NCBI GenBank assembly: GCA_017651315.1
Contig: JAGCDE010000002.1
Span: 1 to 36,253 of the forward strand
Direction: 5' to 3'
DNA from: Bacteroidaceae bacterium
GTDB lineage: Bacteria; Bacteroidota; Bacteroidia; Bacteroidales; Bacteroidaceae
DNA length: 36,253 nt
Shown here: positions 1-33,418 of the stretch, piece after piece
How positions within the stretch are numbered: the first letter of the stretch is position 1
Layout of the letters: each line of letters opens with the position of its first letter
The notes under the pieces: model-generated
Database searches by the model: none
The model's input: the letters and a program-made list of their open reading frames with translations, nothing else
Told to the model about the DNA's origin: nothing
Translations under genes and position numbers: made by a program

Positions 1-261
1 CTCAATAAAGTCCAGCAGTCTGTGTGTGCCGAAATAGATGTTGTCCAAACTGACATACAGCACATCTGTAGTGTTTGTGGGCCCAAACACCTGTAGGATA
101 CGTTGCGTCATTAGTGTGGTCTTGCCAACACCTTTTTGTCCTTTAATCATCAGCAGCCGTTCTTCCCAGTCTATTTCATTCATCAGATTTCTGACGAAAT
201 CCAGGTTTACAGTCTGCATTCTGTTAAGGTGCCTTTTAATGAGTGATTCCATTTTTTTCAT
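1..261 (-). CDS. AAA family ATPase, N-terminal part (cut by window edge)
   Basis: The first 87 residues of a protein that continues beyond the left edge. A Walker A P-loop, GQKGVGKTT, lies near residues 38-46, after a start of the form MKKMESLIKRHLNRM and a predicted strand (ERLLMIKG). A following LYVSLDNIYF stretch fits the next core strand. This arrangement is typical of the large Bacteroidales group of ATPases with a C-terminal DUF4143 domain, but that domain is outside the window, so the subfamily is inferred. I chose ATG 261; ATG 252 in the same frame is possible. A consensus promoter sits about 20 bp upstream, so the gene is probably expressed on its own. The cellular role of such ATPases is not established. 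Confidence 0.8.
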   Translation of the reverse strand, partial: MKKMESLIKRHLNRMQTVNLDFVRNLMNEIDWEERLLMIKGQKGVGKTTLMTQRILQVFGPTNTTDVLYVSLDNIYFGTHRLLDFIE

Positions 262-281
262 TTCAATTACATTTCAGGATG

Positions 282-312
282 CGAATATAAACAGAAGTGT
301 TTAATGTACAAA
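282..312 (-). promoter_or_regulatory. Bacteroidetes-type promoter for the AAA ATPase
   Basis: On the minus strand TTTG (309-312) is followed after 19 nt by TATATTCG (282-289), one base off the TAnnTTTG -7 element. The predicted transcription start near 275 leaves a short leader before ATG 261. Confidence 0.55.
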
Positions 313-556
313 ACATATTATGCAAATATTTGTTCTGTACACAATACATTTCTGTGAAAAATGGTGTGATCTTACCTTATAGTGTTTTGTGGATTAAACA
401 TTATATATGTAAATCTGTTGTTTCTATTAAACATTTTATCTGGAGGTTGTGGCGTTCCGGTCTGTCAGGTTCTACCTTCACAATAATAGCAAACCGTATA
501 ATTATCCGGTATAACATTATTTAATAGAGCGATTGTTGAAAACTTATTCATACTGA
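313..556. other. AT-rich intergenic DNA, nothing recognised
   Basis: This part of the 262-755 gap lies between two divergently oriented genes. I see no convincing ORF, RNA gene or strong inverted repeat in it. The short ORFs it contains are rich in rare residues and have no Bacteroidales-like start context. Confidence 0.5.
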
Positions 557-588
557 TGTGCATGTTTAAGGGAAAAGCCGTAATTTTG
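557..588 (+). promoter_or_regulatory. Promoter for carAB leader
   Basis: TAATTTTG at 581-588 is a perfect TAnnTTTG -7 element. TGTG at 557-560, 20 nt upstream, is a three-of-four match to the -33 TTTG. Transcription would begin near 592-596, giving a leader of about 160 nt before carA. Confidence 0.6.
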
Positions 589-592
589 CGGC

Positions 593-679
593 ATGTTAAG
601 AAAAAAAGGAAATATAGGTTGTCCACTAAAGCATAAGCAGACCGGTGGAAATAATGTTTCCAAGAGGAATATTTTTTAG
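593..679 (+). CDS. Possible 28-residue leader peptide
   Basis: An open frame from ATG 593 encodes 28 residues, beginning MLRKKGNIGC and ending KRNIF. Its TAG stop (677-679) abuts the first base of the terminator stem at 680. The ATG lies at or next to the predicted transcription start, so translation would have to be nearly leaderless. A random ORF of this length is not rare. The placement of its stop is the only reason to list it. Confidence 0.25.
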   Translation: MLRKKGNIGCPLKHKQTGGNNVSKRNIF

Positions 680-716
680 AAGGAGGAATTGTTGTTTACA
701 GTTTCTCCTTTTTTTT
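680..716 (+). terminator. Intrinsic terminator in the carA leader (candidate attenuator)
   Basis: AAGGAGGAA (680-688) pairs with TTTCTCCTT (702-710) with one G-U, the loop is 13 nt, and six T follow (711-716). It lies between the promoter and carA (ATG 756), so it cannot end an upstream gene and is placed as an attenuator. An upstream hairpin, GGAAA/TTTCC at 647-661, could compete with it, because TTCC (658-661) is also complementary to GGAA (685-688). A U-rich tract (671-677) precedes the stem. Confidence 0.6.
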
Positions 717-755
717 ACTCTGTGATTGAATAGTTTAACACAATAAATAAAGAGA

Positions 756-1817
756 ATGACAGTATCACTGATTTTGGCCGACGGCACCTGCTTTAAGGGT
801 GAGTCATTCGGATACGGGCAGCCAGTAAGCGGCGAGCTTGTATTCAATACTGCAATGGCCGGTTATCCTGAGATCCTGACAGAGCCTGCATCACGCGGAC
901 AGCTCATTGTAATGACCTATCCGGTCATAGGTAACTACGGCATCCAGCCCATGACTCCTGATGAGTACGGGCTGCCTACCAACGCCGAGAGCGAGCACGC
1001 ACAGGCACGCGCCCTGATAGTAAGTGACAAGAGTGATTTCTACAGCCATTGGAACGCTGCCGAATCACTTGAGGAGTGGATGAAGCGTGAAAAGGTGGTA
1101 GGCATAGAGGGAGTTGATACCCGTGAGCTTACCAAGCATATCCGCAATCACGGCAGCATGACCGCCAAGATACTGTTTGACGGAAAGCAGAAACCAGCTG
1201 AGTATGCATACACCAATATGCTGCCCGAGGTATCGGTCAAGGAGCCTGTTACATACAATGAGGGTGGTTCCAAGACCGTGGTTCTGGTAGATTGCGGCGT
1301 CAAGGCCGGTGTGGTGCGCTGCCTTATCAATGAGGACCTCAAGGTAGTCCGTGTGCCCTGGAACTATAACTACTCAAAGATCAGGATGGACGGTCTGGTG
1401 ATATCCGACGGTCCCGGTAACCCCAGTTACTGCAGTGAGGTGGTTACAGCCCTGCAGAAGTTCATGGCTAAGAATGACACCCCGATACTGGGTATAGGTA
1501 TGGGTTGCCTGCTGTTAGGCTTGGCCGGCGGTATGGATACTTATAAGCTCAAGTTCGGTCATCACACCCAGAACCAGCCGGTACAGTTGGTGGGTACGGA
1601 CCGCTGCTACATAACCACTCAGAACCATAACTACGCCATCCGTGAGGATTCGGTTGTAGGCCAGTGGAAGGTTTATCTAAAGAACCTGAACGACGGATCG
1701 GTAGAGGGAATCTACAATACCCGCAAGCCTTGGGTGGGCGTGATGTTCCACTCGGAGTCAGATCAGGTACGCACTGATGCTGAGTTTATTTATGATGATT
1801 TTGTTTCAAAACTCTAA
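756..1817 (+). CDS. carA: Carbamoyl-phosphate synthase small chain, glutaminase site altered
   Basis: The small subunit normally hydrolyses glutamine and passes ammonia to CarB for pyrimidine and arginine synthesis. All 353 residues align with CarA: an N-terminal domain (FNTAMAGYPEILTEP, near residues 30-44), the DTRELTKHIR segment, and a class I amidotransferase domain (VLVDCGVKAG, ISDGPGNP, KFGHHTQNQPV, TQNHNYAI). The nucleophile elbow is abnormal. Canonical GICxGxQLL reads GIGMGCLLL here, so the catalytic Cys position is Gly248, and the His/Asn and Gln that follow are Cys and Leu. The final motif HPEA is HSES, which keeps the His and Glu. The reading frame is intact and carB follows after 12 bp. 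Either CarA is now structural and the enzyme uses free ammonia, or it is a diverged paralogue. Expression is probably controlled by the leader terminator at 680-716. Confidence 0.93.
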   Translation: MTVSLILADGTCFKGESFGYGQPVSGELVFNTAMAGYPEILTEPASRGQLIVMTYPVIGNYGIQPMTPDEYGLPTNAESEHAQARALIVSDKSDFYSHWNAAESLEEWMKREKVVGIEGVDTRELTKHIRNHGSMTAKILFDGKQKPAEYAYTNMLPEVSVKEPVTYNEGGSKTVVLVDCGVKAGVVRCLINEDLKVVRVPWNYNYSKIRMDGLVISDGPGNPSYCSEVVTALQKFMAKNDTPILGIGMGCLLLGLAGGMDTYKLKFGHHTQNQPVQLVGTDRCYITTQNHNYAIREDSVVGQWKVYLKNLNDGSVEGIYNTRKPWVGVMFHSESDQVRTDAEFIYDDFVSKL

Positions 1818-1829
1818 CACCCTAAGGAT

Positions 1830-4800
1830 ATGGCATTGAAGAAGTATAAGAAAGTGCTGCTGCTTGGATCTGGCGCACTCAAGATAGGTGAGGCAGGCGA
1901 GTTTGATTACTCCGGTTCACAGGCTCTTAAGGCCCTGAAGGAGGAGGGCATAGAGACCATCCTGATAAATCCCAACATCGCTACCGTACAGACCAGCGAG
2001 GGTGTTGCAGACAGAGTCTATTTCTATCCCGTAACCCCGTTCTTTGTAGAGAAGGTGATTGCCAAGGAGCGTCCCGATGCGATCCTGCTGGCTTTTGGCG
2101 GTCAGACCGCTCTGAACTGCGGTGTGGCTTTGGAGCAGAACGGTGTTCTGGCCAAGTATAAGGTTAAGGTGCTGGGTACCCAGGTCAAGGCCATCATGGA
2201 CACCGAGGACCGTGACCTCTTCATTAAGCGCCTGGATGAGATAGGCGTGCAGACCATCAAGAGTCACGCTGTAGAGACTATGGACGATGCACGCGCAGCT
2301 GCACGTGAGCTGGGTTATCCGGTTATCATCCGTTCCGCATATGCCCTGGGCGGTCTGGGCTCGGGTTTCTGCGACAATGAGGAGGAACTCAACCGTTTGG
2401 CCGAGAAGTCATTCTCATTCTCACCCCAGATTCTGGTTGAGAAGAGCCTCAAGGGCTGGAAGGAGATTGAGTTCGAGTGCGTGAACGATAAGAGCGGCAA
2501 CTCAATCATAGTCTGCTCGATGGAGAACTTTGACCCATTAGGCATACATACCGGCGAGAGTATCGTGGTTGCTCCTACACAGACCCTTACCCATCACGAG
2601 GTGCAGAAACTGGAGGAGCTGACCATCCGCATTGCCCGCCACGTGGGTATAGTAGGTGAGTGCAACATCCAGTTTGCATTCGATCCCCAGAGCGAGGATT
2701 ACCGCGTTATTGAGGTTAACGCCCGCCTGAGCCGCTCATCGGCCTTAGCATCGAAGGCTACCGGTTATCCTCTGGCATTCGTAGCCTGCAAGCTGGGCCT
2801 GGGCTATAACCTGTATGAGCTTAAGAACTCCATCACCAAGGATACTACCGATTTCTTCGAGCCGTCAGTTGACTATGTTGTATGCAAGATTCCGCGCTGG
2901 GATTTGAGCAAGTTCCATGGCGTGGATCGTGAGATCGGCTCATCAATGAAGTCCGTAGGTGAGGTTATGTCTATCGGCCGCAGCTTTGAGGAGGTTATCC
3001 AGAAGGGTATCCGTATGATTGGTCAGGGCATGCACGGATTCGTGGAGAACAAGAGCATCAAGTTTGCCGATCTGGACAAGGCGCTCAAGGAGCCTACCGA
3101 CAAGCGTCTGTTCGCTATCAGCCAGGCATTCAGCGAGGGTTACACCATAGACCGCATCTATGAGCTGACCAAGATTGACAAGTGGTTCCTGAACCGTCTG
3201 AAGGGTATTGTTGACCTGTCCAGGCAGTTGCATAAGGTTAAGGGCATAGAGGCTCTGGGCGAGGATATGTTACGCAAGGCCAAGAAGATGGGATTCAGCG
3301 ATTTCCAGATTGCCCGTGCCACAGGTGAGGAAAAGAAGCTGGGTTCACAGGCCAGCCTGCTGGCAGTACGTAACAAGCGTAAGAGCCTTGGCATCGTACC
3401 CTACGTTAAGCAGATAGATACCCTGGGCGGTGAGTATCAGGCCAAGGAGAACTACCTGTACATGACTTATAACGGTTGCGCTCACGATATACCGTTCTTT
3501 GATGACAAGAAGTCCATCATCGTTATCGGCTCCGGTGCATACCGCATAGGTTCATCGGTTGAGTTTGACTGGTGCGGCGTTCAGGCCCTGAACACCGTCC
3601 GCAAGGAGGGTTACCGCAACATAGTTATCAACTGCAATCCTGAGACCGTAAGTACCGACTATGACGTTACAGACCGTCTGTTCTTTGATGAGCTCACTTT
3701 TGAGCGGGTTATGGATATCATAGAGCTGGAGGATCCCTACGGTGTGATTGTATCAACCGGCGGACAGATTCCCAACAACCTGGCCATGAAGTTGGACGCC
3801 ATGAACGTGCCTATCTTAGGTACAAGCGCCAAGGACATTGATAACGCCGAGGACCGCGAGAAATTCTCGGCCATGCTTGACCGCATCGGTGTGGACCAGC
3901 CTGAGTGGAGCGAGCTTACCTCTATGAAGGAGATAGGCAAGTTCATTGATAAGGTGGGATTCCCCGTACTGGTACGTCCCTCATACGTGCTCTCAGGTGC
4001 TGCCATGAACGTGTGCAGCAACCAGGAGGAACTGGAGCGTTTCCTGCAGCTGGCTGCCGAGGTATCAAAGGAGCATCCTGTTGTAGTTAGCCGCTTTATT
4101 GAGAACGCCAAGGAGGTTGAGATGGATGCCGTTGCCAAGGACGGTGAGATAATTGCCTACGCCATCAGTGAGCACATTGAGTTTGCCGGCGTACACTCAG
4201 GTGATGCTACCATCCAGTTCCCGCCACAGAAGCTTTACGTTGAGACAGTCAAGCGTATCAAGCGCATCAGCCGTCAGATTGCCAAGGAACTGCATATAAG
4301 CGGTCCTTTCAACATCCAGTATCTGGCCCGTGAGAACGATATCAAGGTTATTGAGTGTAACCTGCGTGCTTCCCGTTCATTCCCGTTCGTGAGCAAGGTG
4401 CTCAAGATCAACCTTATCGAGATAGCAACCAAGATCATGCTGGGCATACCTGTAGAGGCACCCGAGAAGAGCCTGTTCGATATTGACTACGTCGGTATCA
4501 AGGCATCACAGTTCTCGTTCAACCGTCTGCAGAAGGCTGATCCGGTGCTTGGCGTTGATATGGCTTCTACGGGTGAGGTGGGCTGCTTAGGTGATGACCA
4601 GCGTTTTGCCATCCTGGAGTCAATGCTGTCAGTGGGTTACCGCATCCCCAAGAAGAACATACTGCTCTCTACCGGTACAGCCAAGCAGAAAGCAAGTATG
4701 CTTGATGCAGCCAGGATGTTGAGCAGCAACGGATACAACATCTATGCCACAGGCGGCACATCAAAGTACCTGGAGGAGAACGGTGTACCCAATACCCGCG

Positions 4801-5057
4801 TATATTGGCCCAGCGAGGAAGGACAGCAGCCGCAGGCTCTTGACATGCTGCACAACAAGGAGATAGATATGGTAGTGAACATACCTAAGGACCTCACTCA
4901 GCATGAGCTCACCAACGGTTACAAGATCCGCCGTGCCGCCATTGACCTGAATATTCCGCTGATTACCAACGCCCGTCTGGCCAGCTCGTTCATCAATGCC
5001 TTCTGCACGGTTGACATTAATGACATACCCATCAAGAGTTGGGACAGTTTCAAGTAA
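1830..5057 (+). CDS. carB: Carbamoyl-phosphate synthase large chain
   Basis: Makes carbamoyl phosphate from bicarbonate, ammonia and two ATP in the cytoplasm. The 1075 residues are full length for the family. There are two homologous ATP-grasp halves. The first starts at VLLLGSGALKIGEAGEFDYS and carries RSAYALGGLGSG near residue 167. The second starts at IIVIGSGAYRIGSSVEFDW near residue 567 and carries VRPSYVLSGAAM. An oligomerisation region lies between them. A C-terminal MGS-like allosteric domain (LLSTGTAKQKASMLDAARML, then YATGGTSKYLEENG) is where UMP and ornithine bind in the E. coli enzyme. No damage is visible in the synthetase sites, so the protein could make carbamoyl phosphate from ammonia even if CarA is catalytically dead. 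The codon use is GC-rich compared with the EPS genes. Confidence 0.97.
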   Translation: MALKKYKKVLLLGSGALKIGEAGEFDYSGSQALKALKEEGIETILINPNIATVQTSEGVADRVYFYPVTPFFVEKVIAKERPDAILLAFGGQTALNCGVALEQNGVLAKYKVKVLGTQVKAIMDTEDRDLFIKRLDEIGVQTIKSHAVETMDDARAAARELGYPVIIRSAYALGGLGSGFCDNEEELNRLAEKSFSFSPQILVEKSLKGWKEIEFECVNDKSGNSIIVCSMENFDPLGIHTGESIVVAPTQTLTHHEVQKLEELTIRIARHVGIVGECNIQFAFDPQSEDYRVIEVNARLSRSSALASKATGYPLAFVACKLGLGYNLYELKNSITKDTTDFFEPSVDYVVCKIPRWDLSKFHGVDREIGSSMKSVGEVMSIGRSFEEVIQKGIRMIGQGMHGFVENKSIKFADLDKALKEPTDKRLFAISQAFSEGYTIDRIYELTKIDKWFLNRLKGIVDLSRQLHKVKGIEALGEDMLRKAKKMGFSDFQIARATGEEKKLGSQASLLAVRNKRKSLGIVPYVKQIDTLGGEYQAKENYLYMTYNGCAHDIPFFDDKKSIIVIGSGAYRIGSSVEFDWCGVQALNTVRKEGYRNIVINCNPETVSTDYDVTDRLFFDELTFERVMDIIELEDPYGVIVSTGGQIPNNLAMKLDAMNVPILGTSAKDIDNAEDREKFSAMLDRIGVDQPEWSELTSMKEIGKFIDKVGFPVLVRPSYVLSGAAMNVCSNQEELERFLQLAAEVSKEHPVVVSRFIENAKEVEMDAVAKDGEIIAYAISEHIEFAGVHSGDATIQFPPQKLYVETVKRIKRISRQIAKELHISGPFNIQYLARENDIKVIECNLRASRSFPFVSKVLKINLIEIATKIMLGIPVEAPEKSLFDIDYVGIKASQFSFNRLQKADPVLGVDMASTGEVGCLGDDQRFAILESMLSVGYRIPKKNILLSTGTAKQKASMLDAARMLSSNGYNIYATGGTSKYLEENGVPNTRVYWPSEEGQQPQALDMLHNKEIDMVVNIPKDLTQHELTNGYKIRRAAIDLNIPLITNARLASSFINAFCTVDINDIPIKSWDSFK

Positions 5058-5083
5058 GCTATCCCGGCTCTTGATGGGTATGT
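5023..5083. repeat. Long inverted repeat across the carB stop codon
   Basis: ACATACCCATCAAGAG (5023-5038) is perfectly complementary to 5068-5083. The pairing extends inward (5039-5044 with 5062-5067, two G-U) to about 22 bp with a 17-nt loop that holds the TAA stop (5055-5057). The left arm encodes DIPIKS near the CarB C-terminus. Confidence 0.85.
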
Positions 5084-5092
5084 ACCTTGTCT

Positions 5093-5117
5093 GTCCCCCT
5101 AAATCCCATAGGGGGAC
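5093..5117. terminator. Hairpin between convergent carB and DUF4249 genes
   Basis: GTCCCCCTA (5093-5101) and TAGGGGGAC (5109-5117) form a perfect 9-bp stem with a 7-nt loop. It lacks a long T run on either strand, so it may be a weak bidirectional terminator or an mRNA 3'-end stabiliser. Confidence 0.5.
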
Positions 5118-5137
5118 CTGGTCACTTAGCTCGCGGT

Positions 5138-5965
5138 TTATTGTTTTACTGTCACCTCTGTTATGCCGTAGCCGAACCAGTAGCCTATGGCACCTTCCAG
5201 ATTCCCTTTCAGTTTGTTGGAATAGGGCAGAATGACTACCGGGCTGAAGAGCTGTGCCTCACTGTATTTGCTCCAGTACTCGTATGAGTCATATCCTATT
5301 GAGGCCATCTTGATGCGGACAGTGTTGCCTGTGTGATAATAGGGGGTCTGGTCAACCAGCGGATTGCTTATTCCGCGGTTTATGACGATCATCTCATCCT
5401 GGCGGACAAGCTCACTGTCATAGAGGTTGCCCGATGAAGCAATGTATGTGGAGTCAATGCCTGTTTCCTTGCTGAAAAACTTGTAGTATGTATGCTTGCC
5501 CGGGGTGGGGACTACATGGACTTTAATGGAGCAGAGTGTGTCGGATCCGGCTTTTCGGTCAACGACGATTGAGTCCATCATGCCTGGTTCCGGTATGGTG
5601 GTTGTGCCGGTGGCATGCATGTCATGCCATCGGATATCGAGTTGGTATGTGCCGCCTGTCTCGCCTTTTAGATTGGGATTGGTATAATACATACCCAGAA
5701 AATACTTGTTGGTGAAATGTGGTTGAAGCTTGTATTCAGTTCCCTGATATGTTACGGTGACTTTGGAGTTGAGAGCTATATGGCTGATGAAATCCTGAAG
5801 GGTCTGCTCTGAGAATGTGTCGGTGACGGATGATGTCACGAATACTACGGGAGCTTCACCGTTCTCAATCCAGCCTTCCACGACAAGCTGATCCTGACTT
5901 GGCTCATGCTTTGTGCATCCTGTCAGAATGAGGAGAAGGGATAATATGTATAATCGGTGTATCAT
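5138..5965 (-). CDS. DUF4249 family lipoprotein
   Basis: A 275-residue predicted outer-membrane or periplasmic lipoprotein. The signal peptide MIHRLYILSLLLILTGC ends in a lipobox (LTGC), so Cys17 would be lipidated. After it comes a DUF4249-like pattern: LVVEGWIENGEAPVVFVTSS near residues 28-47, a beta-sandwich-like body, then a C-terminal YWSKYSEAQLF and a closing NLEGAIGYWFGYG. Proteins of this family are habitually encoded right after a TonB-dependent receptor in Bacteroidetes. I infer that they work with it in ligand capture, but the ligand is unknown. Only 1 nt separates the receptor stop from this start, so translation is probably coupled. A similar pair lies at 32287-35833. Confidence 0.85.
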   Translation of the reverse strand: MIHRLYILSLLLILTGCTKHEPSQDQLVVEGWIENGEAPVVFVTSSVTDTFSEQTLQDFISHIALNSKVTVTYQGTEYKLQPHFTNKYFLGMYYTNPNLKGETGGTYQLDIRWHDMHATGTTTIPEPGMMDSIVVDRKAGSDTLCSIKVHVVPTPGKHTYYKFFSKETGIDSTYIASSGNLYDSELVRQDEMIVINRGISNPLVDQTPYYHTGNTVRIKMASIGYDSYEYWSKYSEAQLFSPVVILPYSNKLKGNLEGAIGYWFGYGITEVTVKQ

Positions 5966-5966
5966 A

Positions 5967-7982
5967 TCAGAATCGGCAGAAATAGCTTATCGAAGGAATT
6001 ACCGGTACTATAAACTGAGCGTAATCGTATTTGACAGTCTGCTTGTCAGTGTCAAGGTTCAGGTACCCCATGAGTTTGTTGGGGAACCCGCAGGCGTTAT
6101 ACAGGGATAGGTTTATACCGTGACTGTATTTTCCGTGACTCCTGAGATTGTAGGTGGCTGACAGGTCAAGCCGTGTCATGGGCGGCAGATATGAAGAGTT
6201 GTACTCGTCGTAATAGATTATTACTGTGTTGGATACTATGTAAAGATTTTTGGCTGGCGTGTAAGGGATTCCTGAAGCGAGCAGGAACATCCCGCCCAAG
6301 TCAAACCGTCCGGCCTTGTAAGAGACGACGGCGTTGAACTCATGCCTGCGCTCAAATGATGAATGAAACAGTTTGGGGTAGTTGATACCATCGCCCTCAC
6401 GTAGGGATTGGTTGTAGGAGTAGCCCAACCATCCTGTAAAACCGCCGGCTTGCTTGGTGAGCATCAGACTTACTCCGTAGTTATAGCCGGAACAAATCAG
6501 GATGTTGTCCTCAAGACGGTAGGGGTGGGACATGATATCATAGAAAAAACCAGTGTATTCAATCTGGTTCTCAAGGCGTTTGCCATAAGTCTGGAACGTT
6601 AAGGCATATTTGCCGTTAAGGAACTCCAGGTCATAGGATAGTGTGGCAAAGAGTGATTTCTGGGGCTTGAAGTAGTGTCCTGATGCCACATAGAACTCTA
6701 TCGGGAGTCCTATGTTGGTCATGCCGGTCTGTGTCAGATACTGGTGCTTGACTCCTGATTCGAATGTTATGTTGCCGCGGCGGAACATGTCGTATTCGAG
6801 AGTGAGGGCGGGATCTGCATTGATGTCCTTGTAATGGCCATATTCACGATAGCCGGTAATGAGCAGAGTGGGGGTGATGCTGAGGCCGCCTGAGCGGAAA
6901 GTGCGGTTGATGACGGCATTGGCCTGGAACACCTGCTGAGTCTCCTGGACGGCTGTTTCGGGCTTGTTCAGACTCATTTCAGGACGTTGTGGAAGGATGG
7001 AGTAGTATGAGGCATCGGCCAGAATGCGGAATCTCAGCGGGAGCTGGACATCGGTCTTGATACTGTATTGGGTCAGGTATGATCTCAGTTTGCTGGTTAT
7101 GTTATCCTGTAAGATTGTGGATTCAAGCGTGCGTCCGGTTACAAATGCCGATGTTGAGGCACGGAGATGAGGTGAATTGTGCCGCCACCTCAATGAAGCG
7201 AAACCATTGTCCCATGATCCTGATACGCTCATCTTGTTTTTCCCGTATTTGGTGCTGCCTTCGTCAAAGCTGTAGAATATGTTAATATCCAGCTTGTTAT
7301 GTTGGTCAAGCTGATGAAGCAGGGTTAAGTTGAGGTCAGTAAACCCGAAGGTGACGGGGTTGTCGTCATACATAAGCACGTTACCATATACTGCGTTCAT
7401 GAATGTACGTCGGGCCGACACGGTGAGCGCAGTCTTGCCGCCAAAAGGTACGTTAAGGCTGCCCTGGGCCGAAATGATGCCGAGCATGCCTACACCGGAC
7501 ATGTGGTCAGGGATGGTGTCGGCATGGTCAAGAGATAGCTGAGCGGCCAGGAAAGGGGCGTAAGTGGAGGTGCTGAACCTGACTTGCGGCACATGGTCCT
7601 GGTTGAAGATGGAGAAGAGTCCTAACAGATGCGTTACACTATAGACCGGGACATCGGATAACGTAATGAGGTTTTGTGAGGTTTCACCACCCTGGACGTG
7701 CATCCCGCTTTCACATCCGTTGATTGTGGTTACGCCGGGAAGGGACTGGATATACTGCATGGGGTCAGTGTAGCCGAACAGTTTGGGGTAAGTCTCCATC
7801 TTCTTGGAATCTATCCTGATGCCCTGTACCATCGTGCCGGATATGGCAGATACGTTGCGGTGTTCAGTAAGTGTTATCTCGTCAAGGGTGTAGTTTAAAT
7901 AAACCGTATCCTTCTGGGCAAAACCCCAAATAGATTGAAACGTCAGGCTTATTAAAAAGAGTATCTTTATTTTACAGGTCAT
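5967..7982 (-). CDS. TonB-dependent outer-membrane receptor
   Basis: A 671-residue predicted 22-stranded beta-barrel importer powered by TonB-ExbBD. A signal peptide (MTCKIKILFLISLTFQSIWG, then FAQ) is followed by a short strand, DEITLTEHRNVSAI, and a plug domain. The plug shows DPMQYIQSLPGV, MHVQGGETSQNLITL and DVPVYSVTHLLGLFSIFN at about residues 77-130. The barrel ends in Phe (SISYFCRF), as expected for BAM recognition. The N-terminal carboxypeptidase-regulatory-like domain present in the second receptor of this window is missing here, so the protein is shorter. The GCESGM insertion in the plug is unusual. The gene heads a two-gene operon with DUF4249. The substrate cannot be deduced. Confidence 0.9.
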   Translation of the reverse strand: MTCKIKILFLISLTFQSIWGFAQKDTVYLNYTLDEITLTEHRNVSAISGTMVQGIRIDSKKMETYPKLFGYTDPMQYIQSLPGVTTINGCESGMHVQGGETSQNLITLSDVPVYSVTHLLGLFSIFNQDHVPQVRFSTSTYAPFLAAQLSLDHADTIPDHMSGVGMLGIISAQGSLNVPFGGKTALTVSARRTFMNAVYGNVLMYDDNPVTFGFTDLNLTLLHQLDQHNKLDINIFYSFDEGSTKYGKNKMSVSGSWDNGFASLRWRHNSPHLRASTSAFVTGRTLESTILQDNITSKLRSYLTQYSIKTDVQLPLRFRILADASYYSILPQRPEMSLNKPETAVQETQQVFQANAVINRTFRSGGLSITPTLLITGYREYGHYKDINADPALTLEYDMFRRGNITFESGVKHQYLTQTGMTNIGLPIEFYVASGHYFKPQKSLFATLSYDLEFLNGKYALTFQTYGKRLENQIEYTGFFYDIMSHPYRLEDNILICSGYNYGVSLMLTKQAGGFTGWLGYSYNQSLREGDGINYPKLFHSSFERRHEFNAVVSYKAGRFDLGGMFLLASGIPYTPAKNLYIVSNTVIIYYDEYNSSYLPPMTRLDLSATYNLRSHGKYSHGINLSLYNACGFPNKLMGYLNLDTDKQTVKYDYAQFIVPVIPSISYFCRF

Positions 7983-12374: not shown

Positions 12375-12405
12375 TTTGTTTTTTTGAGTACTGGCACAAT
12401 ATTTG
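12375..12405 (+). promoter_or_regulatory. Promoter of the exopolysaccharide operon
   Basis: TTTG (12375-12378), 19 nt, then AATATTTG (12398-12405), one base off TAnnTTTG. Transcription near 12412 gives a 30-nt leader before ATG 12442. It also argues against the TTG start at 12403. Confidence 0.6.
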
Positions 12406-12441
12406 CGCGCGCGTTGCGTTAGTATATTAAAGCGAGACAAA

Positions 12442-13095
12442 ATGTTGAATTATAATATAAACAGATATTCCGCTCCCCTCAGAAAGCTGGAGCATTATGA
12501 TGCGATGGATGGTTTTCAACTGGCAGTAAAGAGGGTTTTCGACATCATTTTCTCAATAATCGGGCTCATCCTGTTCTCGCCGCTCCTGTTGATTTTTTCC
12601 GTAATACTGGTTTTCAGCAAGGGGCCTGTGATTTTTAAGCAGGAACGTATCGGTTACAGAGGCAAGCCTTTCATGATTTACAAGTTCAGGACAATGAGGA
12701 CCGATGCCGAGGATGACGGAATCCCCCGTCTTGAAGTGGAACGCAACAGGTATCTGACTCCCTTCGGCCGTTTCCTCCGTTCTCACCATCTTGATGAACT
12801 GCCGCAACTCTGGAACGTGCTCAGGGGTGACATGTCCTTCGTCGGTCCCAGACCTGAGAGACAGTATTTCATTGACCAGATCAACCGTGAGACCGATGAC
12901 TACCGCTACATCTATCTGATGCGTCCCGGGGTCACATCCTACGCTACAATCTACAACGGTTATACCGACACAATGGACAAGATGCTCAAGAGGCTTGAGT
13001 ACGACCTTGACTATCTGGACAACCGTTCCCTGTTACTGGATCTGAAGATCATTTTCAACACTGTGTTCTCAGTGTTCAGCGGAAAGAAATTCTAA
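12442..13095 (+). CDS. Initiating sugar-phosphate transferase (bacterial sugar transferase family)
   Basis: Starts repeat-unit synthesis by moving a sugar-1-phosphate onto undecaprenyl phosphate at the inner membrane. The 217 residues correspond to the minimal monotopic core, without the N-terminal four-helix and CoA-binding region of WcaJ-type enzymes. Motifs: KRVFDIIFS (30-38) leading into one re-entrant membrane helix (39-59), FKQERIGYRGKPF (65-77), IYKFRTM (79-85), the catalytic DE pair in HLDELPQLWNVLRGD (Asp118/Glu119), and MSFVGPRPER. ATG 12442 is chosen because it lies just downstream of the predicted transcription start. It is the first gene of a six-gene run and 13 bp precede the export gene. 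The sugar is not predictable. Confidence 0.93.
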   Translation: MLNYNINRYSAPLRKLEHYDAMDGFQLAVKRVFDIIFSIIGLILFSPLLLIFSVILVFSKGPVIFKQERIGYRGKPFMIYKFRTMRTDAEDDGIPRLEVERNRYLTPFGRFLRSHHLDELPQLWNVLRGDMSFVGPRPERQYFIDQINRETDDYRYIYLMRPGVTSYATIYNGYTDTMDKMLKRLEYDLDYLDNRSLLLDLKIIFNTVFSVFSGKKF

Positions 13096-13108
13096 TTCCC
13101 AATCTCTT

Positions 13109-15586
13109 ATGAGAAAATCACTCTTATTGGTTTTGCTCATGTCAGCCGTATCGGTATCCTCATGGGCACAGATGTCCGAAGACAGAATCATCCAATATGT
13201 TCTTGAGCAGCAGGAGAAAGGCATGTCCCAGGAACAGATAGTCTATAATCTGAGCCGCAGGGGAGTCTCCATTCGTCAGCTCCAGCAGATGCGTGACAAA
13301 TACGAGAAACAGCAGGCTACCGGTGTGCTCGGCAACACGATACCCTCGACAAATGCAACAAACCAGAGGACCAGGACCGGCGACCAGACGCTGAACCTTG
13401 TCCAGGAGAATAACGGAATGAACAATCTGACGGAGGCGGAACGGCTCCAGCAGATGCGTGACGAGTCAATGTTCCTCTTTACCGACTCCCTGGAGCTGCT
13501 AAGGCAGCAGCTGTTCCCGTACAAGAGGGAGATTTACGGTCACAACGTGTTCAGCAACAAGAATCTCTCTTTTGAACCGAGCATGAACCTGCCCACTCCC
13601 CAGAACTACCGCCTCGGTCCGGGAGACGAGGTCATCATTGATGTATGGGGAGCCTCCCAGAACACCATACGGGAAGTCATCTCTCCCGACGGCAACATCA
13701 TTGTGGAGGGCATCGGGCCGGTTTATCTGAACGGACTCACCATCCAGGCTGCCGACAGATACATAAAGAAGGAGTTGAGCCAGATCTATTCCGGACTCGA
13801 CAATGCGAATTCAAACATCAAGCTCTCCCTTGGACAGGCCCGTTCAATACAGGTGAACGTTCTGGGAGAGGTGGAGAATCCCGGGACATACGTCATGTCC
13901 TCGTTCGCCACGCTTTTCAATGCCCTATATATGGCGGGCGGCGTGACAGAGATAGGTTCCCTGCGTGATGTCAGGCTCTACCGCAACAATAGGGAGATAG
14001 CCAAGGTGGACCTTTACGATTATCTCCAGAACGGAGTGCTCAAGGATGATATAAGGCTGGATGACAACGACGTGGTGATGGTATCATCGCATTCCATGCT
14101 TGTGAACATAAGCGGCCGTGTACGCCGCCCCATGTTCTACGAGATGAAGAGCGGGGAGAGTGTCTCCACTTTGATTGAATATGCTGGTGGACTGGAATCC
14201 GATGCCTACAAGAAGGATATACGTCTCATACGCATGGGCGAGTTCCAGCGTGAGATATACACTTTGAACAGGGAGCAGCAGGAGAGTTTCCTGCTTGCTG
14301 ACGGTGACTCCCTTTATGTGGATTCCATTCAGGTCACATTCTCCAATATGGTGGAGGTGAGGGGGGCTGTCTTCCGTCCGGGACAGTTCCAGATAGGTTC
14401 CGGCATCTCCACGGTGCTTGACCTGATCGAGGCTGCCGGTGGTCTGCGCGAGGAGGCATTCCCCACGAGAGCCCTGCTGAGCCGCACCAATCCGGACAAG
14501 ACGCTGGATAATCTTTCCATTGACCTCAAGGGGCTCACTAACGGTACGGTGGCCGATATCCCCCTCAGGAACAACGATGTCCTGTTCATCCCGAGCCTGT
14601 TTGACATAGGCGAGGTCAAGACCGTGAGCATTTACGGCGAGATTCTCTTCCCGGGCGAATATAGGTATGCCGACAACACGGCCATAGAGGACCTTATACT
14701 TCAGGCAGGCGGCCTTAAAGAGACCGCATCGGTCTCCAAGGTGGATGTCGTGCGCCGCAAGAGCGACAAGAACGCCATCGAGAAGAGCGATGAGCTGTCG
14801 GAGACATTCTCGTTCACAATCGACGAGAACCTCTCGATCGGTGACAATGACTTCAGGCTCCAGCCTTTCGATGAGGTGTATGTGCGCCGCAGTCCCGGAT
14901 ATGCCTTGAACAGGCGTGTCATAGTGGAGGGTGAGGTGGTCTTTCCCGGTTTCTATTCGCTCTCCGCGAACAACGAACGTCTCAGTGACATCATTGCCCG
15001 TGCGGGAATGTTCAGCAACCAGGCCTATCCCGCAGGTGCCCGCCTGGAGCGCAGGATGACCGACGAGGAGAGGGTGAGGATGCGCAAGACGGTGGAGACC
15101 CTCTCGGCCAACGACTCCGTGGCCCTTGCCAAGACACTTGAGAAACTGATGGAATCCACTACGTTCGATGTGGGCATCAATCTTCAGGCCGCCGTTGACA
15201 AACCGGGCGGAGAGGCCGATATAGTCATGCGTGACGGAGACCGCATAATCATCCCCCCGTTCACCAACACTGTCAAGATAAACGGAGAGGTGATGTTCTC
15301 CAACACCACGCCTTTTGTGAAAGGCAAGAACCTGAATTATTATATCGACAAAGCCGGTGGATTCACCCAGAAGGCCATGAAGAACAAATGCTACGTGGTC
15401 TATATGAACGGTTCCGTGTCAAGGGGCAGGAAAACGTCGTCAAGGCTTATCCAACCCGGTTGCGAGATAATCGTTCCCTCCAAGCAGAAGCGTGAAGGCA
15501 TGAGCACTACCGAGATTCTCAGCCTTAGCTCTACATCGGCCTCACTGGCTACGGTAGTGTTGGCGCTCATCAACCTTCTGAAATGA
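13109..15586 (+). CDS. Polysaccharide export protein with multiple SLBB domains
   Basis: A Wza-related outer-membrane export protein of 825 residues, about twice the size of E. coli Wza. A signal peptide (MRKSLLLVLLMSAVSVSSWA) is followed by a helical region holding two LQQMRDxxxx segments (58 and 113). A Poly_export domain follows (YRLGPGDEVIIDVWG, near 167-181). Then come six SLBB-like units starting at VNVLGEVENPGTY, VNISGRVRRPMFY, VEVRGAVFRPGQF, VSIYGEILFPGEY, VIVEGEVVFPGFY and VKINGEVMFSNTT, each followed by a (A/G)GG or AG turn. A C-terminal hydrophobic helix (SLATVVLALINLL) could anchor it. There is no lipobox Cys, unlike Wza. Its stop overlaps the start of the co-polymerase gene by 4 nt. 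Confidence 0.93.
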   Translation: MRKSLLLVLLMSAVSVSSWAQMSEDRIIQYVLEQQEKGMSQEQIVYNLSRRGVSIRQLQQMRDKYEKQQATGVLGNTIPSTNATNQRTRTGDQTLNLVQENNGMNNLTEAERLQQMRDESMFLFTDSLELLRQQLFPYKREIYGHNVFSNKNLSFEPSMNLPTPQNYRLGPGDEVIIDVWGASQNTIREVISPDGNIIVEGIGPVYLNGLTIQAADRYIKKELSQIYSGLDNANSNIKLSLGQARSIQVNVLGEVENPGTYVMSSFATLFNALYMAGGVTEIGSLRDVRLYRNNREIAKVDLYDYLQNGVLKDDIRLDDNDVVMVSSHSMLVNISGRVRRPMFYEMKSGESVSTLIEYAGGLESDAYKKDIRLIRMGEFQREIYTLNREQQESFLLADGDSLYVDSIQVTFSNMVEVRGAVFRPGQFQIGSGISTVLDLIEAAGGLREEAFPTRALLSRTNPDKTLDNLSIDLKGLTNGTVADIPLRNNDVLFIPSLFDIGEVKTVSIYGEILFPGEYRYADNTAIEDLILQAGGLKETASVSKVDVVRRKSDKNAIEKSDELSETFSFTIDENLSIGDNDFRLQPFDEVYVRRSPGYALNRRVIVEGEVVFPGFYSLSANNERLSDIIARAGMFSNQAYPAGARLERRMTDEERVRMRKTVETLSANDSVALAKTLEKLMESTTFDVGINLQAAVDKPGGEADIVMRDGDRIIIPPFTNTVKINGEVMFSNTTPFVKGKNLNYYIDKAGGFTQKAMKNKCYVVYMNGSVSRGRKTSSRLIQPGCEIIVPSKQKREGMSTTEILSLSSTSASLATVVLALINLLK

Positions 15587-16689
15587 CCGCTATGGAAAAA
15601 GAAAAGAAACCTGTTATAAAGGAACAGGACATAATGGAGTTGTTATCAACTCTCTGGAAAAACAAAAGATTTATCATCAGGTTCACTCTTCTGTTTTTTG
15701 TTTTCGGTGTGGTGCTGGCTGTGACATCGGTAAAGAAATATACTGTTGAGGTAATGGTTGCACCTGAAGCTTCTGATGGTGCTTCCCTTGCAGGTAATCT
15801 GGGCTCTTTGGCTTCAATGGTCGGTATTGATTTGGGAGCTGCATCAGGGGATGCCATATATCCTTTGATTTATCCGGATATAGTCACTTCGTTGCCGTTC
15901 CTGACATCAATGATGGATGTCAGGGTCAAGACACAGGACGGAGTTGACACCACATACTCATATTATCAGGCAAAACTTCAAAAGAAATATTGGTTCAGTG
16001 AGGTTCTCAAGGCCCCAAAGAAGGGATTGATGAAACTGGCCTCCCTATTTAAGAAACAACAGCCGTCAGGTGGAGATCCTTATGTGTTTGATCCGTATCG
16101 TCTGTCAAAACAACAACTTGGCCAGGTTGAGACTCTAAAGAACAAAACTACCATTTTTGTTGACAAGAAGACTGAGGTGATAACTCTTTCTTTCACAGAT
16201 TCTGATCCAGAGGTGGCAGCTGTCATGGCAGAGACAATGGAGAAGTTTCTGGAAGAAGCCGTTACCGAATACAGGACCAAAAAGGCCCAGAAGGATTGTC
16301 AATACATGGAGAAACTGTATCTTGAGTCAAAGGCGGAATACGAAAAGATACAGCGTGAATATGCTGAATATGTAGATCACAACAGGAATATAACGTTGGA
16401 AAGCGTGTTGATAGAAAGACAGCGTCTTGAAGAAGAAAAGGAACTGAGAAATACATTGTATTCCCAATGGGCACAGCAGTTAATGGTTTCTCAAGCGAAA
16501 TTACAGCATAATACACCTGTGTTCACAACTTTAAAACCAGCTTCCGTACCGGCCCAACCGTCATCAATAAGGCGGTTGTTAGTGATTTTCTTATACGGTT
16601 TTACCGGTCTGGTCATAGCTGTGTTATTTGTTTTGTTAAGGAAACCGTTCCATCAGATATTAGATAAGATGAAAGGTTCTGAAAAGTGA
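15583..16689 (+). CDS. Wzz-type polysaccharide co-polymerase (chain-length determinant)
   Basis: A 368-residue inner-membrane protein that sets polymer length. One membrane helix lies near residues 29-49 (FIIRFTLLFFVFGVVLAV). A periplasmic domain rich in coiled coil follows (YRTKKAQKDCQYMEKLYLESKAEYEKIQREYAEYV, about 229-263), then a proline-rich stretch (PASVPAQPSSIRR) and a second helix near 335-356. It ends soon afterwards, with no Walker motifs or tyrosine cluster, so the BY-kinase part of Wzc is absent. The ATG at 15583 overlaps the previous stop (ATGA). ATG 15592 is an alternative. Base composition shifts toward AT from here on. Confidence 0.9.
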   Translation: MTAMEKEKKPVIKEQDIMELLSTLWKNKRFIIRFTLLFFVFGVVLAVTSVKKYTVEVMVAPEASDGASLAGNLGSLASMVGIDLGAASGDAIYPLIYPDIVTSLPFLTSMMDVRVKTQDGVDTTYSYYQAKLQKKYWFSEVLKAPKKGLMKLASLFKKQQPSGGDPYVFDPYRLSKQQLGQVETLKNKTTIFVDKKTEVITLSFTDSDPEVAAVMAETMEKFLEEAVTEYRTKKAQKDCQYMEKLYLESKAEYEKIQREYAEYVDHNRNITLESVLIERQRLEEEKELRNTLYSQWAQQLMVSQAKLQHNTPVFTTLKPASVPAQPSSIRRLLVIFLYGFTGLVIAVLFVLLRKPFHQILDKMKGSEK

Positions 16690-17876
16690 TTTACTTTTGC
16701 TTGTTCATAATTCTGCTCGTACCAGTCATCCGGTATGATTTGTGCGCTAAAAGGGGAGGTGAGAATATATGGTTCTATTCTTCTCTTTTTCTGCTTATTA
16801 TGATTGCTGGATTACGTTATAGGGTTGGAGGGGACACACTGGTTTATATGGCGGACTTCAACAGTTGCCCAAAGCTGGATGAAATCAAGTATTTTGATTT
16901 TGAGACAGCCCGGTTCAATCCGTTGTGGTATTTGTTCAATGCTTTATGCCGTTCAATTAACGACAGTTTCACGTGTTTTCAGATTATTCATGCTGTTATT
17001 GTTAATTGTACATTTTTCCATTTCTTCCGCAAGTATTGTCCCCGCTATTATTTTTCAGCTATACTGGTCTGGTATGTAGGTTACTGGTGTTATTTCAATA
17101 TGGAAATTCTGAGAGAAGTCCTATGTATCTGCATCCTATTGTGGTCAACCGAATGGCTACTGGAAAAGAAACTCCTCAGATACTATATTTTTTGCATAAT
17201 AGCCTTGTTCATACACTACTCCGCTATTGTAATGACAATATTTCCCCTGTTATATCTCATATTCCGCCGTCCGAACTGGATTTTTCAGTTGGTTCTCCTG
17301 TTTGGTGTAATGTGTCTCACTGCAATGATTAATCTTCCTTCCTTGATCGTAAGTGTCTTTTCGCTCGATGACCAGTTATTGACCATTATCGAAAACTATC
17401 TGCAGGTAGATTCCAGGAACCTGACAGGAATGCTTTTCGAAATATTCAAGTATCTTCCAGTCCTTGGGATTATATGGCTGAGAGAGCGCAACGGAATGGA
17501 GGACGAATTTGATTTTGTACCCATAGTTTCATGTATGGTGGTATTTACAGGCATGGCAACATATCTTGGGGTGGCTGGAAGATTCCTGAATTATTGTGCA
17601 CCGTTCTTTATTATTACTTTTGTCAATACATTATATGATTTTCTTACTGAACAGGAGTGGAAGTCCAGGAATATATCGGCATTAGTGACTTTTTCCGTAT
17701 TGATAGTACTGACTTTCAATTACAGTGATTATTATCTGAAAGACAGGTCGGATGTATATCCTGACACCCGTTCCTATTCCATTTTCTTGCCATACCATTC
17801 GGTGATAAATCCTGTTGTTGAAAATAAGAGGGAGGGATATGTCGAGAATCTGCATGACCTTTCAATTTTCTTCTAG
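16686..17876 (+). CDS. EpsG-family polysaccharide polymerase
   Basis: A 396-residue multi-pass membrane protein with roughly ten or more hydrophobic helices. It carries the EpsG-like signature AGLRYRVGGDTLVYMADF (residues 41-58), where an Arg and an Asp lie close to the membrane surface. Such proteins are placed as Wzy-like polymerases that join flipped repeat units in the periplasm. It sits between the co-polymerase and a glycosyltransferase, as expected. The start is GTG 16686, overlapping the previous stop as GTGA. No other in-frame start exists before the second helix. Sequence conservation in this class is low, so the polymerase role is inferred from topology and neighbours. Confidence 0.85.
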   Translation: MIYFCLFIILLVPVIRYDLCAKRGGENIWFYSSLFLLIMIAGLRYRVGGDTLVYMADFNSCPKLDEIKYFDFETARFNPLWYLFNALCRSINDSFTCFQIIHAVIVNCTFFHFFRKYCPRYYFSAILVWYVGYWCYFNMEILREVLCICILLWSTEWLLEKKLLRYYIFCIIALFIHYSAIVMTIFPLLYLIFRRPNWIFQLVLLFGVMCLTAMINLPSLIVSVFSLDDQLLTIIENYLQVDSRNLTGMLFEIFKYLPVLGIIWLRERNGMEDEFDFVPIVSCMVVFTGMATYLGVAGRFLNYCAPFFIITFVNTLYDFLTEQEWKSRNISALVTFSVLIVLTFNYSDYYLKDRSDVYPDTRSYSIFLPYHSVINPVVENKREGYVENLHDLSIFF

Positions 17877-17879
17877 CGA

Positions 17880-18830
17880 ATGACTGCAATTATTCTTATC
17901 AACTGGAACGGTGCCGATGACACCATAGAGTGCCTCAGATCATTGGACAAGGCACAGGGAGAATTCATGGTTATTGTGGCCGACAACGGTTCTTCCGATG
18001 ACAGTCTTGAAAGGATAGAGCATGTCATTCATGGACTCTCCTGTAAGGTTGAACTGTTACCTCTCGGTCATAACTGGGGATTCGCGGCAGGAAACAACAA
18101 GGCAATGGAATACGCCCGCAGGTACAATCCTGACTCATACATGTTGCTGAACAATGATACGGAAGTTGAACCGGACTTCCTGCTAAAGCTCCGGGAATAC
18201 AGGAAACTGCATCCTGATGTCAGGATTATTGGACCTATGGTCTGTTACTGGTCTGACAGGGACCGGATCTGGTCCTGCGGCGGCAGGCTTTCGTTCGGTT
18301 CGCGTATAGCCCTCTTCAGGAATTGTACCGTCGATACCTTGGAGTCCAGGAATCCGTTGAAGGTTTCTTTCATCTCCGGGTGCGCACTGTTTGCCGATGC
18401 ATCACTTGTGGATTCTGACGGGCATCTGCTCACTGAGCGGTTCTTTTTCGGTGAGGAGGACTTCGAGTTCGCTCACAGGATGAGACGCAGTGGTGAAAGC
18501 ATGGCCATTCTTCCAGAATCAGTCATATATCACAAGGTTGGTTCATCGGCCAGAAGAATGTCCGGTAGGGCGAAACTTGGACGTGATTACATATATTATT
18601 TAGGCAGGCTCATCGTTATAAAGGACTTTTACAACCCTGTCAGTGTAGCTCTCATACGGCTGTTGAGTCGCCGTCGGTGCAAGAGTTATTTCATTCAGGA
18701 CGGTTTGGACAAGGACAGTGCAAGCCGGCTTGTTTCAAGGCTCATGCGGGATGCAAGGCGAAAAGATGGCATCAGCTATGATGATTTCCGGTCGATAGTC
18801 ATTGAAGGAATATTCTTTGACAGTATTTGA
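17880..18830 (+). CDS. Family 2 glycosyltransferase (rhamnosyltransferase-like)
   Basis: A 316-residue GT-A fold enzyme that adds a sugar to the growing lipid-linked repeat on the cytoplasmic face. Motifs: TAIILINWNGADDTIECL (2-19), VADNGSSDDS (nucleotide binding), GHNWGFAAGNNKAM, the metal-binding DxD equivalent in LLNNDTEVEPDFL (near 93-105), SGCALFADASLV and FFFGEEDFEFAHRMR, which carries the ED base motif. The order matches WbbL-type rhamnosyltransferases, but donor and acceptor are unproven. The start lies 3 nt after the previous stop. The stop overlaps a possible TTG start of the flippase gene. Confidence 0.92.
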   Translation: MTAIILINWNGADDTIECLRSLDKAQGEFMVIVADNGSSDDSLERIEHVIHGLSCKVELLPLGHNWGFAAGNNKAMEYARRYNPDSYMLLNNDTEVEPDFLLKLREYRKLHPDVRIIGPMVCYWSDRDRIWSCGGRLSFGSRIALFRNCTVDTLESRNPLKVSFISGCALFADASLVDSDGHLLTERFFFGEEDFEFAHRMRRSGESMAILPESVIYHKVGSSARRMSGRAKLGRDYIYYLGRLIVIKDFYNPVSVALIRLLSRRRCKSYFIQDGLDKDSASRLVSRLMRDARRKDGISYDDFRSIVIEGIFFDSI

Positions 18831-18835
18831 AAACT

Positions 18836-20062
18836 ATGGAAAAGGGAAGGAAACAGGTCATTGTATTGTATGCGGCTACATTTCTCGGGGCTATCCTGAA
18901 TTTTGTGGCTTCCAAGGTCAATACAGACTTCCTTTCCCCTTCAGACTATGGTGATGTAAAATATGTGCTCAATGCCATTCAACTTGTTTCTTGGGTGGTG
19001 CTGTTCGGATGGTTCCTGTCCGGTAGCCGTCTTCTTGCCTTATCTGATGACAGACAAAACAGCGCTAGAATAAGGGGGGCCTTGATAGTATTCCTGTTAT
19101 TTTCAATGGTAATGCTAATGATAGCAACATTCATTGTGGGACTTTTCCATAATAACAGGCCGGAGGTCAGGATCCTTTTTTTCTGTTCGCTTCCAGTGTG
19201 TTTCTATCCACTATTGACAAACTATATGAATACAACAGCACAGGGCGACAATCATATAGGAAGGCTCGCACTTGCAAGGTTGTTACCTGTATTGTGTTAT
19301 ATACCTGTCGCTTTTTATATATATAATAGATTCAGTGCTGATTCCCGGACGGTACTTTGGTTACACTGGGGTGTCTGTTCACTGGTACTTGTCATAATTG
19401 TTTTTTCCACAAGACCTTCATTTGTTAACCTTAAACCCGTATTTGATGCTATAAGGAAGGAAAACCGTGAATATGGTATTCATCTATATTGGGGGTCATT
19501 AGCTATGGTTGCAACCAATTATTTGGCAGGTGTGACATTGGGACTGTTTAACAAGGATAATACTGATGTGGGCTTTTATACTTTAGCCTTATCTTTTGCT
19601 CAACCGCTATCATATCTTCCCGGAATAGTAGGAACTACATATTTTAAACGTTTTGTGCATGAAAAAAGCATTCCAGGTAAAGTCTTTCTCATTACTGTAT
19701 TTTTGACTATAGTCTCATGTCTCGGATTTATAGTGCTGGTTCATCCCGTGATGAGACTGTATAATGAATCATACGGAATAGTAGCTGAATATGCTTCATG
19801 GCTTGCTGTAGGTTTCAGTATTCATGGTGTGGGCGATATGATTAACAGGTATCTGGGATCACATGGCCAAGGTATGAGTATTTTGAATAGCAGTATTGCC
19901 TGTGGACTTGTGAAAATCGCTGGATTTACATTGTTTGTGTGGATATGGGGTATAGACGGAGCTATTGTAACCAATATAATCGGTTCGTCAGTTTATTTCA
20001 TTTGTATATATCTGTTTTATAGAAGATACATTGAATCAGGAAAGATGGTCAATGAGGGTTGA
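18836..20062 (+). CDS. Polysaccharide flippase (Wzx-like, MOP superfamily)
   Basis: A 408-residue protein with about twelve hydrophobic segments, fitting the oligosaccharide flippase family that turns the undecaprenyl-linked repeat across the inner membrane. The first helix (VIVLYAATFLGAILNFVASK) and the phrase NTDFLSPSDYGDVKYVL match the family start ("lspedyG"-type). I chose ATG 18836, 5 nt after the previous stop. TTG 18827 would overlap that stop as TTGA and add three residues. It is the last plus-strand gene of the run. Its 3' end overlaps the opposing glycosyltransferase gene by 27 bp, so no terminator space exists between them. Confidence 0.9.
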   Translation: MEKGRKQVIVLYAATFLGAILNFVASKVNTDFLSPSDYGDVKYVLNAIQLVSWVVLFGWFLSGSRLLALSDDRQNSARIRGALIVFLLFSMVMLMIATFIVGLFHNNRPEVRILFFCSLPVCFYPLLTNYMNTTAQGDNHIGRLALARLLPVLCYIPVAFYIYNRFSADSRTVLWLHWGVCSLVLVIIVFSTRPSFVNLKPVFDAIRKENREYGIHLYWGSLAMVATNYLAGVTLGLFNKDNTDVGFYTLALSFAQPLSYLPGIVGTTYFKRFVHEKSIPGKVFLITVFLTIVSCLGFIVLVHPVMRLYNESYGIVAEYASWLAVGFSIHGVGDMINRYLGSHGQGMSILNSSIACGLVKIAGFTLFVWIWGIDGAIVTNIIGSSVYFICIYLFYRRYIESGKMVNEG

Positions 20063-21342: not shown

Positions 21343-21365
21343 TGTTTGAAAAAAACATTTATTCA

Positions 21366-21397
21366 ATTGCAACAAACGATTATGTTGCTTAATTTTG
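21366..21397 (+). promoter_or_regulatory. Promoter for the GT2 gene at 21457
   Basis: ATTG (21366-21369), 20 nt, then TAATTTTG (21390-21397), a perfect -7. Transcription near 21404 places a long hairpin in the 5' leader. Confidence 0.6.
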
Positions 21398-21399
21398 TA

Positions 21400-21447: not shown

Positions 21448-21456
21448 AGCGTGAAT

Positions 21457-33414: not shown

Positions 33415-33418
33415 AGGG

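Follow-up and report, generated by a model that had tools for sequence, protein, structure and literature searches.

The carbamoyl-phosphate synthase (CPS) encoded near the beginning of the window, meaning the whole stretch of 36,253 nucleotides analysed here (G000:C52:1-36253), possesses a small subunit, CarA, without the glutaminase nucleophile. This Cys-less CarA is confirmed as a feature shared by almost the entire sampled genus and is under selection. Judged from its sequence, the enzyme is likely to be an ammonia-dependent bacterial CPS in which the use of glutamine has been given up. The initial annotation had already proposed the use of free ammonia, and this putative function gains strength from the loss of Gln273, the intact large subunit CarB, and 12 genomes in which no other CPS was found. 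The window is derived from a draft genome of 2.69 Mb (59 contigs, 83% complete), and the genus sample contains 37 genomes, all of them drafts, 31 of which are 76-90% complete.

Glutaminase site of CarA and intact CarB

The carA gene (positions 756..1817, + strand) is an open reading frame of 353 residues with the sequence and domain order of a CarA (Pfam PF00988 and PF00117), scoring 370.5 bits in TIGR01368 against a cut-off of 307.35. Since the score lies above the cut-off, automatic annotation would label the protein as glutamine-hydrolysing. In E. coli CPS, Cys269 and His353 are described as essential for glutamine hydrolysis (PMC6245113). In the alignment to E. coli K-12 CarA (L233), from which the residue numbering is taken, the nucleophile elbow of the window CarA (1491..1514, + strand; GGT ATA GGT ATG GGT TGC CTG CTG, codons 246-253) reads G-I-G-M-G-C-L-L. 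Cys269 is replaced by Gly248, Leu270 by Met249, His272 by Cys251 (codon 1506..1508, one position before the lost Gln273), and Gln273 by Leu252. Simultaneously, H332-S333-E334-S335 (1749..1760, + strand) aligns with H353-P354-E355-A356, and only the adjoining Pro and Ala are changed. The catalytic Cys-His-Glu triad is thus incomplete, with Gly at the position of Cys269 and with the His and Glu present. The initial annotation had read the elbow as GIGMGCLLL, with Gly248 in place of the Cys and Cys and Leu at the next positions, and HPEA as changed to HSES; both readings are borne out by the alignment.

Beyond those changes, Ser47 is replaced by Ala45 (codon 888..890, + strand), Asn240 by Asp218, Asp244 by Asn222, and Gly313 by Asn292, the latter located in the stretch QNHNYA (residues 289-294; 1620..1637, + strand). 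Gln273, Ser47, and Gly313 of E. coli CarA are presumably the glutamine-binding residues, Ser47 being a glutamine contact, and all three are exchanged in the window CarA (Leu252, Ala45, and Asn292). With Gly, Asp, or Glu in place of the Cys across the genus, and with an altered glutamine pocket, the protein would be unable to form the glutamyl-thioester.

The carB gene (1830..5057, + strand) begins 12 bases past the carA stop and encodes the large, synthase subunit of 1075 residues, recognized by Pfam and by TIGR01369 with 1509.1 bits against a cut-off of 1027. Both ATP-grasp halves contain their catalytic residues. Of 33 selected positions of E. coli CarB, 28 are identical in all 19 CarBs of the clade, including the gate residues Cys232, Ala251, and Ala314, and the remaining five vary in normal CarBs as well. 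The full length and these residues agree with the initial description of CarB as intact, and the clade CarBs are changed at five columns that are conserved elsewhere. With its sites intact, CarB would combine NH3 with bicarbonate at the cost of two ATP to give carbamoyl phosphate, and CarA would be retained as a structural, perhaps ammonia-entry, subunit.

In positions 1-6000 of the window, no Rfam match reaches the gathering score. Other parts of the window were read by eye from the translations. Positions 12403-22245 contain an exopolysaccharide-type cluster with a sugar transferase, export and chain-length proteins, polymerase-like and flippase-like proteins, and glycosyltransferases. Two similar gene pairs, each consisting of a small lipoprotein-like and a TonB-dependent-receptor-like gene, are situated near both window ends (5138-7982 and 32287-35833). 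Positions 1-261 on the - strand hold the start of an ATPase-like gene with the P-loop GQKGVGKTT, cut off by the contig start.

Conservation, selection, and origin in the genus

In a genome search, the Cys-less CarA type (62-100% identity) is found in 34 of the 37 genomes and is not seen in the other three searched (G004, G010, and G014). The gene is full length in 32 of the 34; in G035 the reading frame is broken, and in G026 the contig end leaves residues 1-240 only, so that the elbow is not readable. All 33 readable elbows lack the Cys and carry Gly, Asp, or Glu at position 248, which rules out a sequencing error or the oddity of a single genome. Among 109 other aligned CarAs, Cys269 is present in 107, and the two exceptions (L079 and L109) had been taken out ahead of that count. 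In the clade alignment (n = 32, with G035 dropped and G026 unreadable), Cys251, Leu252, Asn292 in place of Gly313, His332, Ser333 in place of Pro354, and Glu334 are each invariant (32/32), and the position of Asn240 is changed in 28 members and that of Ser47 in 26 (Ala in 26, Ser in 6). Over 77 columns conserved in normal CarAs, the number of departures is 11-16 in clade members, no more than 6 in normal CarAs, 5 in L079, and 17 in L109. The changes are not significantly enriched in the pocket, where 4 of 12 conserved columns are affected compared with 9 of 65 other conserved columns (p 0.11).

The median dN/dS of the Cys-less clade is 0.074 for carA (N-terminal part 0.089, GATase domain 0.060) and 0.035 for carB, as calculated from 27 equally long carA sequences of the clade and from pairs with dS 0.1-1.5, the most divergent members lying outside this set. 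By comparison, the second carA of the genus has a median of 0.036 and Bacteroidaceae carA one of 0.026 (GATase part 0.015), and the Cys-less carA therefore evolves at two to three times the dN/dS of Cys-bearing carA. The Cys-less carA is under purifying selection, which is relaxed but has not decayed the gene, and a dN/dS of about 0.07 rules out a recent pseudogene. The raised ratio, a roughly threefold faster change of CarA than of CarB along the stem of the clade, and the broken frame in G035 would suit a CarA that is a non-catalytic leftover, decaying or only regulatory, with carbamoyl phosphate made by CarB alone or by a different pathway. Such a role is improbable, however, given that both halves of CarA have a dN/dS far below 1, that 32 of 34 carA genes are full length, and that carA adjoins carB in all 21 Cys-less loci read.

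The fixed residues around the lost Cys admit two further readings. A displaced nucleophile, namely Cys251, three residues further along, in a rearranged site together with His332 and Glu334, would still hydrolyse glutamine or another amide; the invariance of all three residues (32/32) and the lower dN/dS of the GATase domain than of the N-terminal part accord with it. Nevertheless, this arrangement has a low probability. Triad amidotransferases are described as having a conserved G-X-C-X-G elbow (PMC5871853), the positions of Gln273, Gly313, Asn240, and Ser47 are changed as well, and position 248 tolerates Gly, Asp, and Glu. Furthermore, many other columns of the clade are invariant, and one invariant Cys is thus weak evidence. 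In the other reading, to which a very small chance is given, the GATase pocket with its fixed Cys251, His332, Glu334, Asn292, and Ser333 has been re-purposed to bind or cleave a non-glutamine nitrogen donor or a signal; if so, the enzyme would be a CPS that takes a new donor or acts as a new nitrogen sensor. Loss of glutamine use in favour of ammonia remains the preferred interpretation.

In the CarA tree, the Cys-less CarAs form one clade (16 of 67 rows, SH-aLRT 100), which matches the expectation in the initial annotation of a clade with conserved Cys loss. The clade sits in a starred group (99) that otherwise consists of 19 Bacteroidaceae-type CarAs, its exact sister not being resolved. The partner CarBs likewise form one clade (15 of 46 rows, support 100) in a similar group; both trees were built from sequences other than eukaryotic ones. 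The stem of the clade measures 1.03 changes per column in CarA and 0.17 in CarB, under different models for the two trees. Under one model the CarA/CarB ratio of the stem is 3.45. The 40 branches that lie outside the clade, counting those common to both trees with a CarB length of at least 0.03, have a median of 1.12. The largest ratio outside the clade, 4.53, belongs to the Cys-less L109, the next is 2.06, and the Cys-less L079 has 1.47. Within the clade CarA is still somewhat faster (median 1.94 over 8 branches). The origin of the clade was thus marked by a phase of rapid change that CarA underwent and CarB did not.

In 10 of the 21 Cys-less loci, a PurF gene of about 626 codons lies directly upstream of carA in the order purF-carA-carB. 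The same order exists in relatives with a Cys-bearing CarA, including Bacteroides finegoldii (elbow GICMGNQLL), and is therefore ancestral. Together with the placement of the clade, this gene order suggests that an ordinary Bacteroidaceae purF-carA-carB locus encoded the family's native CPS and that its glutaminase was most likely lost in a single event at the base of the genus. Ammonia could conceivably be supplied to CarAB through contact with a separate glutaminase or amidotransferase, such as the adjacent PurF. This is very unlikely, since the arrangement is shared with Cys-bearing CarAs, and in the window genome the divergent PurF gene is absent upstream of carA and an ordinary-type PurF is encoded on another contig. 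As a special ammonia donor, the upstream protein of about 626 residues was rejected, being a divergent PurF in the ancestral gene order. The Bacteroidaceae PurF beside carA (L158:7280-9157 and relatives) falls below every Pfam cut-off in the two tested (L158 and L061). In the genus, the carA-adjacent PurF and the ordinary PurF occur in largely complementary sets of genomes, G011 containing both and G018 neither.

Among the 80 loci listed, two more Bacteroidales CarAs lack the Cys, each beside a full-length CarB. In L079 (9983-11074), the elbow is GIGMGNLLL and the triad His is Tyr; it resembles the window CarA in the changes of Cys to Gly and of Gln to Leu. In L109 (6732-7838), from goat rectum, the elbow is GLGTGYHLI and the triad His is Asn. 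A clade of the genus with L079 is not rejected by CarA (p 0.21) and is rejected by CarB (p 4e-60); for L109 the values are p 0.15 and p 2e-7. As the constraint tests on CarA do not reject, the independence of the three losses is carried by CarB and the unconstrained CarA tree. L079, L109, and the genus apparently represent separate losses of the Cys, with a transfer of carA alone as another possible route. When 393 genomes of the order were scanned with a pattern for similar Cys-less elbows, 36 matched, and among the 30 loci listed only the one in the window is a carA; as the pattern demands a Met directly behind the lost Cys and overlooks many replacements, this result does not indicate rarity. 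No report of a bacterial Cys-less CarA was found among the titles and abstract openings listed for open-licence papers. Among the other loci, L082 (6718-14295) has the arrangement carB-carA-carB, with two different carB genes flanking one Cys-bearing carA. Several genomes of the family genera g8 and g17, 90-99% complete, are without any CarA match, and possibly CPS is absent there or was missed by the first-look filter.

Second CPS and nitrogen cluster

A second carA, of approximately 45% identity, is present in 20 of the 37 genomes, and all 20 copies have the Cys and a normal pocket. The initial annotation had considered a second canonical CarA elsewhere in the genome; it exists in these 20 genomes, including near relatives of the window genome, but none was found in the 83%-complete assembly of the window. 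The second CarB has a separate ancestry, and its grouping with the partners of the Cys-less CarAs is rejected with p 3e-67 (p 0.037 for CarA). GltB, found in 21 of the 37 genomes, lies about 8 kb away on the same contig as the second carA in 14 of 20 cases and on another contig in four (G026, G028, G030, and G036), and it was not found in G004 and G035, both of which have the second carA. Three loci (L040, L044, and L051) show the order gltD-dapF-dapL-carA-carB, with dapL assigned by NCBIfam and gltD and dapF by eye. In L197 (G024), gltB, GSIII, asnB, AmtB, PII, pyrG, and purF share the contig of the second carA, and in L198 (G036) the order of the cluster is as in L197, but carA is on another contig. 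AmtB is present in 23 of 37 genomes, comprising the 20 with the second carA together with G000, G002, and G034. The window genome carries on contig C24 purF, pyrG, PII, and amtB, then an unrelated frame of 547 residues instead of asnB, and then the contig end. In G014, which has no detected Cys-less carA, a second divergent carB lies without an adjoining carA (L192:5682-8909). In G018, rated 100% complete, short gltB fragments in two frames are located at a contig end (G018:C22:50-776; L190), and neither AmtB nor the second carA was found; the nitrogen cluster there may be decaying, or the assembly may be broken.

The Cys-less CarA is the only CarA in 16 genomes. For four of these, the absence of a second CPS is unreliable, given AmtB in G000 and G034, AmtB, GltB, and a second carB in G002, and the gltB fragments in G018. 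In the other 12 (G001, G005, G008, G013, G015, G016, G017, G019, G020, G021, G022, and G023), none of the second CarA, the second carB, GltB, and AmtB was found, the carB of G005 being two pieces of one gene. These genomes are 76-98% complete (G016 98%, G021 97%, and G023 96%) and, as related species, are not twelve independent cases. Carbamoyltransferases are encoded in these genomes, with at least two OTCace_N proteins in 11 of the 12, two each in G016, G021, and G023, and one in G013 (77% complete).

Gene content and position suggest that species lacking the nitrogen-scavenging cluster would rely on the Cys-less CPS alone. The other species would in addition possess a glutamine-dependent CPS whose genes are linked to those of GOGAT and, where the contig could be read, to those of GSIII, AmtB, and PII. 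The two enzymes may serve as a pair, one suited to ammonia-rich and the other to ammonia-poor surroundings. In Prevotella ruminicola 23, amtB, glnK, and asnB are reported to be clustered, with GSIII-2, gltBD, and dapF nearby, and to be strongly induced under limiting ammonium, while GS-GOGAT transcripts are reported as high in non-limiting ammonium (PMC5552732). Because of the latter, the regulation of the second CPS pair cannot be deduced directly from that species. If the proposed functions are correct, the genus would contain a natural isozyme pair in which the choice of nitrogen donor could be tied to the ammonia supply.

Comparison with known carbamoyl-phosphate synthases

The E. coli CPS is reported to need very high, likely unphysiological, ammonia (PMC6245113), and the Cys-less enzyme would thus have to use ammonia better, a property beyond what a sequence can reveal. 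Rumen ammonium is given as typically 4-70 mM (PMC5552732), at which an ammonia-dependent CPS would be workable, the link of the genus to such habitats being an assumption. The triad His and Glu, invariant in 32/32, count against the ammonia reading, as they are needless in a dead glutaminase; human CPS1 keeps both too. One review extends glutamine as the donor to all bacterial CPSases. If ammonia use is true, bacteria would have undergone the switch known from land vertebrates as well, apparently on several occasions within Bacteroidales. The label "glutamine-hydrolysing" would then be wrong for almost the entire genus, with possible consequences for metabolic models of nitrogen use.

With the glutamine-dependent CarAB (CPS II), the window enzyme shares the subunits, the gene order, the TIGR01368 and TIGR01369 families, an intact CarB, and often purF-carA-carB, but it lacks the nucleophile Cys and its pocket is changed. 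In the case of the frog and Alcolapia CPS, which represent the transition from CPS III to CPS I, glutamine use is described as weakened or lost via binding residues (PMC7657897, PMC4655335). These enzymes keep the triad Cys, whereas the CarA of the genus has lost both the Cys and a binding residue.

Human CPS1 is reported to have Ser (Ser294) for the catalytic Cys and to depend on external ammonia, along a path that perhaps skips the old glutaminase site (PMC4655335). Two apparent resemblances to it were discarded. Human CPS1 as the best PDB match is no evidence, since a Cys-bearing relative matches CPS1 better, and Gln272 of the window at E. coli Gly293, considered as a CPS1-like tunnel block, has Gln or His commonly at its position in Cys-bearing CarAs. 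In the alignment, human CPS1 equals the window CarA in Leu at Gln273, Ala at Ser47, and Asn at Asp244, and the HxE pair is kept in both. The hallmark of an ammonia-dependent CPS, a glutaminase-like part without the catalytic Cys, is present in both, but the replacement is Ser in CPS1 and Gly, Asp, or Glu in the genus. CPS1 is one fused chain that needs N-acetylglutamate and serves the urea cycle, whereas the window encodes a bacterial two-subunit enzyme that is no CPS I by descent, with separate carA and carB genes and a clade that falls with the CarA and CarB of Bacteroidaceae. Ammonia is the established donor of CPS1 and the predicted one of the genus enzyme, and the Cys-less CarAB is, on the best reading of the sequences, convergent in form with vertebrate CPS I.
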